From an uncultured Thalassolituus sp. (GTDB taxonomy: Bacteria > Pseudomonadota > Gammaproteobacteria > Pseudomonadales > Oceanobacteraceae), in contig NZ_CATMFB010000024.1 of the NCBI RefSeq assembly GCF_950066645.1, positions 1 to 32,557 on the forward strand: 32,557 nucleotides of DNA. The letters are read 5' to 3'. The position numbers and the translations under genes were made by a program. Position 1 is the first letter of the stretch; the number at the start of each line of letters is the position of its first letter. A model generated the notes under the pieces. That model saw nothing but the letters and a program-made list of their open reading frames with translations, was not told the origin of the DNA and searched no databases. Below are positions 27,636 through 30,754 of the stretch, in pieces.

Positions 27636-27872
27636 CAGGAAAAATTTCAGGCTGACAATCCGGACTGCCTGAAGACACTCCATATTCCTCCTCGTTCTAT
27701 AACTCAACAGTAATTCAGGCATCTCAGAATACTTCGTGCTCCTGTGATGTCTGATTGACGTTATTTTGATTGCTTCGCGTCGGAAATGTGACAGTCAGTC
27801 TGTGAGGAGTGATTCTTCATAATCCGGCCCTGTTGGAAAACAAAGGTCTGGCCCATCGAAGGCGTTCAGCTT
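27636..27872. other. Intergenic region before the H-NOX operon
   Basis: No gene is seen. TTCAGGC (27646-27652) and GCCTGAA (27667-27673) form a 7-bp stem with a 14-base loop. A T-run would follow only if it is read on the minus strand, so as a terminator for the plus-strand flavoprotein gene it is weak. The right half carries the regulatory DNA of the following operon. Confidence 0.45.
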
Positions 27873-27883
27873 GTCTAGACTGA
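27873..27883 (+). promoter_or_regulatory. GTCTAGACTGA element upstream of the H-NOX operon
   Basis: GTCTAGACTGA is identical to the element at 24035-24045 and sits at a comparable distance before the start codon. It could be an RpoS-like or sigma-70 -10 (TTGTCTAGACT) or an operator with palindromic core GTCTAGAC. No good -35 is seen 17 bases upstream. Confidence 0.45.
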
Positions 27884-27911: not shown

Positions 27912-29267
27912 ATGTCGTTTTCTTCCTCAGTCAAAGTTACCACAACACCGGATAATGCCCCGGTGGTGTTACTGGTCGACGATGAAGAAGAGATCCTGCG
28001 GGCTCTCACTATGCTGCTCACTCCCCTCAATGCCCGCATTCTCACCGCAGAATCCGCCGAGAGTGGTCTTCACCTATTAGAATCAGCCATCCCGGTGGTT
28101 GTGATTTCTGATATGCGTATGTCGGGGATGGACGGTGCCGATTTTCTGGGTGAGGTCGCGCGCCGGATGCCAGACACGACACGGCTGCTGATCACTGGCC
28201 AGGTGGACACAGACACCACATTGAAGGCGATCAATACCGGACAGGTTCATCGCTTTATTCCTAAGCCCTGGAACGACGCAGAGTTGAAAAAGCTGGTGGC
28301 GGATGCCGTAAAAGGGCACATGCTGGAGCTGCGTAACCAGAAACTTCAGGGGGAGCTCAAACAACGCAATGACGAGCTGGCTGAGTTAAATGCGACGCTT
28401 GAGAAGCGTGTCTCTGATCGTACCGAAGAATTGCGTCTCCACGCCCGTCTGATTGAGCATGCCTTCAGTGACCTGCAGAAAAGCTACGGGCATGTACTGC
28501 GCCTGGCAACGTCTCTGGCGGTGTTAAGAGACCCGAAGGGAAGTACCACGGCTGGCTTGCGGGCTGAAATGGCGGCTTCGCTGGCTGAGGCTGCGGGTTT
28601 GGGCGAGCAGGACATCCGCAGTGTCAGAGATGCTGCCATGCTGGCAGATCTGGGGACTATTGGTCTGCCCGATGAGCTGCTAACGAAACCCTTCACGGAC
28701 TTTGACGGCGAAGACCTGAGGCTGTTCTCGCAATCGCCTGTGCTGGCCGAGGCGGCCCTGATGGGTGTCCCCGGGATGCAGCAGGCCGCCGTGATGCTCC
28801 GCCATCAGTTTGAGCGCTTCGACGGGTCCGGTTACCCGGATAACCTTACGTCAGAAAACATTCCGGTTGGGTCACGTATTATTTCTCTCGTTCGTGACTA
28901 CACTGATTTTATCCGGGGGCGTTTCAATGGTGTTGAGATGACCCCCGCAGCTGCGCGCGCCGAACTGCTGAACCAGGCCAGCCGATATGACGCCAGGCTT
29001 CTGGCTGTGTTCTGCGAACAGTGTGGGGCATTCGTCACGGCGCCTTTAGTGGCCGACGAGAAAAGGCTGAATGCTGCTGATCTTGAACCTGGAATGGTTC
29101 TGGCGGACGACCTGTTCAGTGAGCGGGGTATGATCCTGCTGACCAAAGGTCACACATTGACAGATGAGCTGATCGGTAAGCTCCGGAGTCTGCAGAGCTG
29201 TACTGGGCGGGAGCTTGATATCCGCGTGCGCCGCGATCAGTCCGAACTGGAATCTACAGGGGCATGA
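27912..29267 (+). CDS. Response regulator with degenerate HD-GYP domain (HnoD-like)
   Basis: The protein is 451 residues. The receiver domain (about 17-135) has DDEEE acids (23-27), phosphoacceptor Asp67 in VISDMRM, and Lys118 in FIPKPW. A coiled coil runs over about 137-180. The HD-GYP-like domain (about 185-370) is recognisable by IGLPDELLTKP and ERFDGSGYP, but the metal ligands are gone: HDxGK reads ADLGT (245-249) and the HHExxDG site reads QFERFDG. The C-terminal part (385-440) has LEPGMVLADDLF, a common tail of such regulators. Phosphodiesterase activity is therefore unlikely. HnoD of Shewanella, a degenerate HD-GYP regulator of the H-NOX pathway, is the best analogue by architecture. 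GGAG is 7 bases before the ATG. The H-NOX gene follows after one base. Confidence 0.88.
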   Translation: MSFSSSVKVTTTPDNAPVVLLVDDEEEILRALTMLLTPLNARILTAESAESGLHLLESAIPVVVISDMRMSGMDGADFLGEVARRMPDTTRLLITGQVDTDTTLKAINTGQVHRFIPKPWNDAELKKLVADAVKGHMLELRNQKLQGELKQRNDELAELNATLEKRVSDRTEELRLHARLIEHAFSDLQKSYGHVLRLATSLAVLRDPKGSTTAGLRAEMAASLAEAAGLGEQDIRSVRDAAMLADLGTIGLPDELLTKPFTDFDGEDLRLFSQSPVLAEAALMGVPGMQQAAVMLRHQFERFDGSGYPDNLTSENIPVGSRIISLVRDYTDFIRGRFNGVEMTPAAARAELLNQASRYDARLLAVFCEQCGAFVTAPLVADEKRLNAADLEPGMVLADDLFSERGMILLTKGHTLTDELIGKLRSLQSCTGRELDIRVRRDQSELESTGA

Positions 29268-29268
29268 C

Positions 29269-29817
29269 ATGAAAGGTGTAGTGTTCGATATTCTCAGAGA
29301 CATGGTCGAAGAACAGTTTGGCCTCGAGGGCTGGAACGCGCTTCTTGAGAAAGCCGGGTCCGATGGTCTCTATCTGTCTTCCGAAAGCTACCCTGATGCC
29401 GAGATGACAAAGCTGGTGGTGGTTGCTTGTGAATTTACCGGTATGGAGCAGGAGGCACTACTTCGTCACTTCGGTAAATACATGGTCAAACAGTTCTACG
29501 ATCGCTTCCCTTCTTTTTTTGATAACTGCACTGGGCTGCTCGAATTCCTCGCGTCGGTTGATCGCATTGTGCATGTCGAAGTCCTGAAGTTGTATCCGGA
29601 TGCCAATCTGCCGCGCTTTAACTACGATCAGCGTCCTGGGTCGATTCTGATGGAGTACCACTCCAAACGAAGAATGTGCTGGTTGGCTGAGGGCCTGATT
29701 CTGGGCTCTGCAGAGCATTTTAAGGAACCGATCCGGATTACCCACGATGTCTGTATGCACAAGGGTGATGAGTCTTGCCATATTCAGGTTGATTTAGTGG
29801 AGTCAGATGATGGCTGA
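29269..29817 (+). CDS. hnoX: H-NOX heme nitric-oxide sensor
   Basis: The protein is 182 residues, a stand-alone heme-NO-binding domain of typical length, starting MKGVVFDILRDMVEEQFG. Proximal heme ligand His102 is in VHVEVLKLYP, Pro115 in LPRF, and the heme-propionate motif Y-x-S-x-R is YHSKR (130-134). Cys137, His159, Cys162 and Cys170 have the spacing of the zinc/redox site of Vibrio and Shewanella H-NOX. No distal Tyr for O2 binding is obvious, so NO selectivity is expected. It senses NO in the cytoplasm and controls the adjacent kinase. The frame is open upstream, but ATG 29269, one base after the preceding stop, gives the proper N-terminus. It overlaps the kinase gene by 11 bases. Confidence 0.96.
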   Translation: MKGVVFDILRDMVEEQFGLEGWNALLEKAGSDGLYLSSESYPDAEMTKLVVVACEFTGMEQEALLRHFGKYMVKQFYDRFPSFFDNCTGLLEFLASVDRIVHVEVLKLYPDANLPRFNYDQRPGSILMEYHSKRRMCWLAEGLILGSAEHFKEPIRITHDVCMHKGDESCHIQVDLVESDDG

Positions 29818-30754
29818 CGATTACAAAGACGCCTATCTGAGAGAGAAAGAGCTGCGCAAGCTGGCCGAGCAGAAGCTGGAAGATAAGTCTCGTGAATTGT
29901 ACGAGTCATTCGAGGCGCTGAAAGCGGCCAACAGCAGCATGCAGGAAAACCAGAAGGCGATGGTTCACAACGAAAAAATGGCGTCTCTGGGGGTGTTGTC
30001 TGCAGGGGTCGCGCACGAGATTAATAACCCCATTGGCTTTATTTACAGTAACTTCTGCACGATGGCGGAAGGGATGTCAGATATCAATACCTTCGTCTTT
30101 ACGATGGATCAGCTGGTAAACAGTGGAGCTGACGCAGAGACGATCCGTAACGCCTGGCGCGAAGGACTGACCCGTCACGATGTCGAGTATCTGTTGATGG
30201 ACTTCGAAAGCCTGACCTCAGAAACCATTGAGGGGCTCGAACGGGTGAAGCAGATCGTCGCCGATCTCAAATCCTTCACCCGGGAAGACAGCGGTGATAT
30301 GGACATGGTTGACGTTAACGAGTGTGTCCGTGGTGCGGTCAACATCCTCAGTAACCAGACCAAGTATCACGCCCAGGTCATCGTTGATTACGCCGACGAT
30401 CTGCCTAAGGTCCGGGGCTACTTTGGCAAGCTGAACCAGGTATTCACCAACATGATCGCCAACGCGAATCAGGCGGTCAGCGAGAATGGCGAAATACACA
30501 TCACCACCCGGATGAAGGATGAGCGTGTCGAGATTTCTTTCCGGGACAACGGATGTGGCATCAGCGAGACCAATATGAAGCTTCTGTTCACCCCCTTCTT
30601 TACCACTAAACCGGTGGGGCAGGGGACGGGACTTGGGCTATCCATTTCCCATGGGTTCATTGAAGAGCACAATGGCGAAATCCGCGTCGAGAGTGAGATC
30701 GGCGTAGGAACCACCTTCCTGATATACCTGCCAGCAGCGGACCAGGATCAGTGA
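29807..30754 (+). CDS. hnoK: H-NOX-associated soluble histidine kinase (HnoK-like)
   Basis: The protein is 315 residues with no membrane segment. A Lys/Glu-rich N-terminal coiled coil (about 8-55) leads into HisKA with GVLSAGVAHEINNPIGFIYS (phospho-His70). The HATPase_c domain has N box NMIANANQAV, G1 DNGCGI, F box FTPFFTTKP and G2 GTGLGLSIS. In known systems NO-bound H-NOX inhibits autophosphorylation of this kinase. It lacks its own sensor domain, so H-NOX is the obvious partner. ATG 29807 overlaps the hnoX end; ATG 29810 is equally possible, with GGAG at 29796-29799. The stop lies in a perfect hairpin. The likely phosphorylation target in the window is the first gene of the operon. Confidence 0.94.
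   Translation: MMADDYKDAYLREKELRKLAEQKLEDKSRELYESFEALKAANSSMQENQKAMVHNEKMASLGVLSAGVAHEINNPIGFIYSNFCTMAEGMSDINTFVFTMDQLVNSGADAETIRNAWREGLTRHDVEYLLMDFESLTSETIEGLERVKQIVADLKSFTREDSGDMDMVDVNECVRGAVNILSNQTKYHAQVIVDYADDLPKVRGYFGKLNQVFTNMIANANQAVSENGEIHITTRMKDERVEISFRDNGCGISETNMKLLFTPFFTTKPVGQGTGLGLSISHGFIEEHNGEIRVESEIGVGTTFLIYLPAADQDQ

Follow-up and report, generated by a model that had tools for sequence, protein, structure and literature searches.

The DNA analysed here, referred to as the window, is contig NZ_CATMFB010000024.1 of an uncultured Thalassolituus sp. (assembly GCF_950066645.1), a stretch of 32,557 nucleotides that forms one complete contig of a 3.7 Mb genome. It contains an operon encoding a response regulator, an H-NOX (a haem sensor of nitric oxide, NO) and a soluble histidine kinase. 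We read this operon, with a probability of about 0.7, as an NO-sensing module shortened from a four-gene operon, in which the regulator is catalytically dead and gives its output by phosphorylation-controlled protein contact. What we observed directly is the order and domain content of the genes, the retention of phosphorelay residues and the loss of metal ligands, the conservation of the unit and the selection on its regulator in relatives, and a nearest regulator clade accompanied by an EAL gene.

In the mechanism that we propose, H-NOX would bind NO and alter kinase autophosphorylation, with the NO-bound form presumably inhibiting the kinase, and the kinase would transfer phosphate to the regulator at Asp67. 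Known HD-GYP chemistry would not let the regulator hydrolyse cyclic di-GMP (c-di-GMP); it would act instead through contact, controlled by phosphorylation, with a partner protein encoded elsewhere in the genome. Signalling by contact rather than by chemistry seems probable because the circuit resembles a known kind that has lost its working enzyme.

Operon architecture

A preliminary description of this DNA reported three co-directional genes at 27912-30754, and the open reading frame (ORF) list and Pfam agree on them, with a gap of 1 base between the regulator and H-NOX genes and an overlap of 11 bases between the H-NOX and kinase genes (Table 1). The H-NOX frame starts with a TTG at 29215 in the ORF list; the in-frame ATG at 29269, with the end at 29817, gives a protein of 182 amino acids. 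Pfam matches were obtained for the regulator (REC, E = 1.7e-18; HD_5, E = 5.6e-27), the H-NOX gene product (HNOB, E = 1.6e-41) and the kinase (HATPase_c, E = 1.8e-25, plus a partial and weak HisKA match). Domains and residues also agree with the earlier assignment of the three genes to an H-NOX, kinase and degenerate HD-GYP module of the Hno kind.

The H-NOX contains the HNOB domain, the proximal histidine and the YxSxR motif characteristic of these proteins, is the single H-NOX match of the host genome, and is predicted to bind haem and NO. Its nearest solved structures, chains 4u9b and 2kii, which we take to be the Shewanella oneidensis H-NOX, are 35% identical to it and share the proximal histidine and YxSxR. 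The kinase has the make-up of HnoK, being soluble, sensorless and adjacent to H-NOX, with the histidine and ATP-site motifs in place. In the kinase tree it falls within a group of 33 rows (support 80/85) made up of H-NOX-linked kinases and one Shewanella kinase encoded away from H-NOX.

Table 1. Features of the H-NOX operon in window coordinates
Feature	Position	Strand	Details	Basis
Response regulator, HnoD/NosR-type: REC, long helix, degenerate HD-GYP, C-terminal part	27912..29267	+	451 aa, ATG start	Pfam and NCBIfam
Receiver domain of regulator, residues 18-129	27963..28298	+	Acceptor Asp67 at 28110-28112; Lys118 retained	Pfam and alignment
Degenerate HD-GYP of regulator, residues 196-363	28497..29000	+	HD to AD, HH to QF, GYP retained	Pfam and alignment; purifying selection in relatives
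H-NOX (haem NO sensor)	29269..29817	+	Proximal His102; Y130-x-S132-x-R134; Cys137/162/170 conserved	Pfam and alignment
Soluble sensorless histidine kinase	29807..30754	+	315 aa; phospho-acceptor His70 in AHEINNP; H-E-x-x-N retained	Pfam, alignment and kinase tree
Conserved element TTGTCTAGACTGA	27871..27883	+	28 bases upstream of regulator start	Comparison of upstream regions

A probably dead HD-GYP domain maintained by selection in relatives

In an alignment with an intact paralogue from the host genome, the regulator has TADTSQFD at the eight metal-ligand positions where HHDKHHHD is expected, which bears out the earlier statement that the regulator is degenerate. Six of the eight ligands are lost, among them the histidine of the HD dyad and the HH pair, and the GYP motif and the acceptor Asp and Lys of the receiver are retained. 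The protein lacks the HD dyad and metal ligands that define an HD-GYP phosphodiesterase, and its combination of REC with an HD-GYP domain devoid of the catalytic HD is that of HnoD. It also belongs to the NosR family, scoring 420.6 bits against model NF053512 (curated cut-off 400). This model accepts both other paralogous regulators of the genome as well as a Shewanella HnoD-like protein (457.8 bits), and since all of these pass it, its name, "c-di-GMP phosphodiesterase", is not evidence for activity. Paralogous kinase-regulator pairs are found on contig C3, where the HD-GYP keeps its ligands, and on C11, where it is degenerate; both have longer kinases that appear from their sequences to be membrane proteins. 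An AlphaFold2 model of the window regulator (mean predicted local distance difference test score, pLDDT, 82.6; predicted template modelling score, pTM, 0.49) matches receiver structures and the HD-GYP structures 4r8z, 9rbz and 4mcw in Foldseek.

Every one of the 28 complete gammaproteobacterial H-NOX-linked regulators in our table has a broken HD dyad (25 distinct ones by alignment and 3 by eye), four of the aligned 25 (L086, L119, L174 and L251) being divergent neighbours of H-NOX rather than operon members. Both the window regulator and the tabulated H-NOX-linked regulators have a receiver with Asp and Lys in place. Background regulators of the NosR family have an intact dyad in 24 of 28 cases and a broken one in 4, these 28 being among the top-scoring matches of the NosR model, which biases them toward intact domains. 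With this bias, and with rows that are related to one another, the contrast of 24/28 with 0/28 does not amount to a test on independent events. Within the set read, a dead enzyme is the norm among gammaproteobacterial H-NOX-linked HD-GYP regulators, and selection preserves the dead domain in the genus of the window.

This domain is maintained under strong purifying selection in same-genus relatives, because its ratio of nonsynonymous to synonymous change (dN/dS) is as low as that of the receiver. For the genome pairs G156/G178 and G178/G104, dN/dS is 0.02 in the HD-GYP part of both (synonymous difference 0.68-0.73, near saturation) and 0.04 and 0.02, respectively, in the receiver. In pairs that include the window the synonymous sites of the HD-GYP part are saturated, except against T. 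marinus (dN/dS 0.21), and relative to the four nearest genomes the nonsynonymous difference (pN) is 0.26-0.28 in the HD-GYP part and 0.33-0.38 in the receiver.

As a separate observation, the HD dyad is intact in 3 of 3 Paenibacillaceae regulators tabulated (L161, L172 and L173 lie outside the table). In the Paenibacillaceae H-NOX operons L144, L154 and L178, a REC-HD-GYP gene with intact dyad stands immediately before H-NOX, possibly an active-phosphodiesterase version of the layout.

Relation to four-gene operons

Among 80 H-NOX loci read for gene neighbourhood, four from gammaproteobacterial metagenome-assembled genomes (MAGs; L111, L112, L114 and L115) have an operon in the order REC-EAL, REC with dead HD-GYP, H-NOX, kinase, and all four retain the eight EAL catalytic positions (ENEDDKEQ). 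The regulators of these operons and 12 Thalassolituus-family regulators form one group (support 100/97), with each set on one side of a branch. On the best reading of these sequences, the window operon would be a four-gene operon shortened by its first gene, REC-EAL, because the nearest regulator clade sits in REC-EAL/REC-HD/H-NOX/kinase operons whose last three genes have the same order. Either output gene can be missing, since the window lineage lacks REC-EAL and the units of two f4 genomes (L090 and L091) have REC-EAL directly before H-NOX and no REC-HD; an HD-type gene without a receiver lies nearby in these two. The regulator trees leave out three Paenibacillaceae regulators, L050 and L051. 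The counts also exclude fragments below 330 amino acids (L243, L247, L249, L250 and L252), the background rows L055 and L061 (no complete frame found) and L146 (regulator outside the range read).

These operons change two points of the preliminary description. It had taken the regulator-first order as a peculiarity of the window, and this order is also found in relatives, in the four-gene EAL operons of other Gammaproteobacteria and, according to the part of the source available, in Burkholderia nosR-nosP-nosK (PMC12570481). Its statement that the window contains no EAL gene holds, as the genome-wide EAL search gave zero matches on the window contig, but its account of an EAL gene replaced by flanking metabolic genes is better rephrased as a four-gene operon that is missing its first gene.

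Distribution in the family and order

H-NOX matches were found in 68 of 244 genomes drawn from the order and in 31 of 44 genomes searched in the family. The regulator-H-NOX-kinase unit recurs in 11 of the 31 H-NOX-bearing family genomes, with identical flanking genes in the same-genus genomes read, and for this reason we consider the arrangement to exceed chance. In six family genomes H-NOX and a longer kinase occur together with a divergent regulator, and in five H-NOX is paired with a GGDEF protein. Three have H-NOX and kinase without the regulator (G645, G648 and G651), one has a receiver-only gene with H-NOX and kinase (G642), and one has H-NOX and kinase followed by the regulator (G638, the fully read locus L108); the other four have other, partial or unplaced H-NOX neighbourhoods (G624, G632, G636 and G641). 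Operons with EAL (the nearest outsiders), without EAL, with the receiver only and without the regulator provide a natural series for testing the job of the dead domain.

Syntenic H-NOX operons with a receiver-only remnant or without the regulator were seen in an Oceanobacter MAG (L100:8471-9004), a Saccharospirillaceae MAG (L104) and Thalassolituus alkanivorans (L105). A search of their genomes (G612, G613 and G614, with G648 outside the search) found no closer relative of the regulator elsewhere, the best full-length matches having 31-33% identity. Two same-genus genomes contain a second, divergent H-NOX adjoining a 636-amino-acid EAL-containing protein (L047:3228-5734 and L048:5106-7612). 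Viral contigs compared with the H-NOX alignment gave 29 pattern matches, 0 of them confirmed.

Several results weigh against the reading of a shortened operon with the regulator as its output. Because the regulator is lost or cut to its receiver in the four family genomes G645, G648, G651 and G642, with H-NOX and kinase retained, it is perhaps not the sole or main output. The regulator trees have no outgroup, and calling the four-gene and Thalassolituus-family sets sisters presupposes a root outside the 16 rows. The window regulator and the Shewanella HnoD-like proteins fall in different clades, with their union not rejected (approximately unbiased test, p-AU 0.166). Nor does the test reject a grouping of the window clade with the C11 paralogues, which are not linked to H-NOX (p-AU 0.379). 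It does reject one clade holding every gammaproteobacterial H-NOX-linked regulator, that of Teredinibacter included (p-AU 0.0135).

Upstream region

An exact TTGKCTARACTGA is present in 10 of the 11 upstream regions aligned, including that of the window, with L099 deviating; the pattern was derived from the same regions in which it was counted. It may serve as a promoter or operator. As a regulon element it was rejected, the host genome having only one site. A scan for promoter and terminator consensus gave 3 and 3 sites compared with 2.4 and 3.0 in shuffles, which is chance level.

Relatives of HnoB and HnoC elsewhere in the genome

We classified all 20 EAL matches of the host genome by Pfam; 15 of the 20 domains retain all eight catalytic positions in one alignment. 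None of the 20 is a clear HnoB and none adjoins the operon, in keeping with the preliminary description. REC accompanies EAL in two, an 802-amino-acid REC-PAS-GGDEF-EAL protein on contig C5 and a 576-amino-acid REC-PAS-degenerate-EAL protein on C2. The C5 protein has an intact EAL and a receiver of another type (31 bits to a local REC profile on which the Shewanella HnoB-like proteins score 108 and 114), and it is outside the top five matches of Shewanella HnoB and of all four operon EAL proteins.

The gene for the C2 protein is divergent from that of a 181-amino-acid HTH_17 protein, which aligns with a Shewanella HnoC-like protein (32% over 121 residues) and has lost the receiver Asp and Lys. 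The C2 protein lacks the catalytic EAL of HnoB, the DD, K, E and Q positions being lost in three alignments, among which single columns (the EAL motif, N) vary. Matches to it of at least 190 bits occur in 25 of the 44 family genomes. All 14 Thalassolituus-type copies in the alignment have a degenerate EAL, and the copies of G622 and G626 an intact one, the alignment covering the plus-strand copies, 16 of 30 loci. The preliminary description had proposed looking for HnoB and HnoC in the genome, and had named a whole HnoB/HnoC/HnoD set elsewhere, as the true target, among the cases that would speak against its reading. This case arises only in part: a divergent HnoC/HnoB-like pair does exist, yet with a degenerate EAL and a receiver without Asp and Lys. 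As judged from sequence, relatives of HnoB and HnoC are present, yet not as a working phosphodiesterase, and their connection to the H-NOX operon is hypothetical.

In its own right, this pair (L045:966-3404 on C2), with its nearly invariant helix-turn-helix (HTH) and its conservation in the family, is possibly a pseudo-enzyme transcription switch. A palindrome, CTAYACTG-N4-CAGTRTAG, lies between the two genes with at most 1 mismatch in 8 of 11 loci scanned, the loci from which the pattern was drawn. It was rejected as a link to the H-NOX operon, where it is absent; the genome has one perfect site, at the pair's own promoter, and two two-mismatch sites, which does not exceed the control.

Alternative outputs

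One possibility, which we hold to be rather unlikely though worth keeping in view, is that the regulator works as HnoD itself does, binding and inhibiting an active EAL phosphodiesterase of the genome, with phosphorylation lifting the block and NO raising c-di-GMP. The Shewanella precedent, as given in the review passages available (PMC6335343, PMC8846402, PMC8738867), the 15 genomic EAL domains with all catalytic positions, among them the C5 protein, and the intact EAL gene of the nearest operons argue for it. No genomic EAL protein is linked by gene position to the operon, however, and the receiver of the C5 protein differs from those of the Shewanella HnoB-like proteins.

More doubtful is that the kinase also phosphorylates the C2 REC-PAS-degenerate-EAL protein, which would, together with the regulator, control the divergent HnoC-like HTH protein. 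A precedent is Escherichia coli, where, in the portion of the source available, the degenerate-EAL protein BluF antagonises the MerR-like BluR (PMC3509220). The family-wide conservation of the divergent pair, the intact receiver beside an EAL degenerate in every Thalassolituus-type copy aligned, the near-invariant HTH in a protein whose receiver is dead, and the retention of the HnoB-like gene in 2 of 3 genomes without the regulator (G645 and G651) are consistent with such a relay. On the other side, the HnoB-like gene is also found in five genomes without H-NOX (G038, G199, G219, G646 and G650, the G199 copy having one stop), in three of which (G038, G199 and G646) the HnoC-like neighbour was observed, and in genus g381, where H-NOX pairs with a GGDEF protein (5 genomes). 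Among the genomes whose H-NOX-kinase unit is of the window type (16 in all), G648 (86% complete) lacks the gene and G638 has a match of only 150 bits. The C2 palindrome does not occur at the H-NOX operon, and the C2 protein resembles Shewanella HnoB mostly in the receiver. The stronger statement, that the entire Hno output of the Thalassolituus lineage is pseudo-enzymatic, with the dead HD-GYP and the dead-EAL receiver protein relaying NO by contact to a pseudo-receiver HTH repressor, is slightly less probable still. If true, NO would control transcription via former c-di-GMP enzymes, without c-di-GMP turnover by this pathway, and the circuit would be the NO counterpart of the BluF/BluR light switch.

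It is improbable that the kinase's real partner is some other response regulator and the operon regulator a decaying passenger. Loss or truncation of the regulator in 4 family genomes would fit this, but both of its domains are under purifying selection among three same-genus genomes and the operon is retained in 11. The NCBIfam name and score, and a C3 paralogue with all eight ligands and a longer kinase, might suggest that the regulator works as a c-di-GMP phosphodiesterase, but this is very improbable given the 6 lost ligands and the acceptance by the same model of an HnoD-like protein, HnoD being called inactive in the available parts of the reviews.

Comparison with known systems

Our literature searches found no paper naming both Thalassolituus and H-NOX, and no title or abstract retrieved for H-NOX together with HD-GYP, or for "degenerate HD-GYP", described the arrangement. 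In the passages available, reviews have the Shewanella kinase acting on HnoB, HnoC and HnoD, with HnoD inactive and inhibiting HnoB (PMC6335343, PMC8846402, PMC8738867); the dead domain of HnoD is named a diguanylate cyclase (DGC) domain in PMC8738867 and a degenerate HD-GYP in PMC6335343. In Shewanella genomes G609 and G610 the gene for an HnoD-like regulator clusters with those for an HnoC-like protein (HTH_17 plus REC), an HnoB-like one (REC-GGDEF-EAL, 658 amino acids) and a REC protein of HDOD-like appearance. The names rest on domain make-up and the reviews rather than on S. oneidensis itself. The equivalence with Shewanella drawn in the preliminary description needs amending here, as the HnoD-like gene of G609 and G610 lies in this cluster and not beside H-NOX and kinase. 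A further Hno-like set was seen on a Vibrio coralliilyticus plasmid typed as mobilizable (L303:4364-13260), where REC-EAL and REC-HD-GYP genes overlap, the HD dyad is broken and H-NOX is about 5 kb away.

The window shares with the Shewanella system an H-NOX with a soluble sensorless kinase, a degenerate HD-GYP regulator with intact receiver, and a host genome that has HnoC and HnoB relatives away from the H-NOX operon. It differs in several respects. Its regulator is encoded within the H-NOX operon and groups apart from the Shewanella HnoD-like proteins in the tree; in the host genome, the EAL of the HnoB relative is degenerate, and the receiver of the HnoC relative is a pseudo-receiver. The four-gene operons have the nearest regulators and the same last three genes, but begin with the EAL gene that is absent from the window.

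A FIST gene between regulator and kinase, the mark of nosR-nosP-nosK, is not what the window has; H-NOX stands there instead, and FIST has no match in the host genome. Nothing was found to support a recent swap of sensor between H-NOX and FIST: FIST matches occur in 13 of 36 genomes, in every case on a different contig from the NosR-family regulators or over 1 Mb away from them, and the plasmid loci of B. arboris and B. stagnalis added nothing on this question. As described in the part of the source available, the Burkholderia operon has the order regulator-sensor-kinase, a soluble kinase without known sensor domain that phosphorylates the degenerate HD-GYP regulator NosR, and a FIST sensor (PMC12570481); by this description it resembles the window in order, kinase and regulator and differs in the sensor. 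The window circuit is a variant of the known HnoX/HnoK/HnoD circuit, and its regulator-sensor-kinase order with a degenerate HD-GYP has already been published with a FIST sensor.

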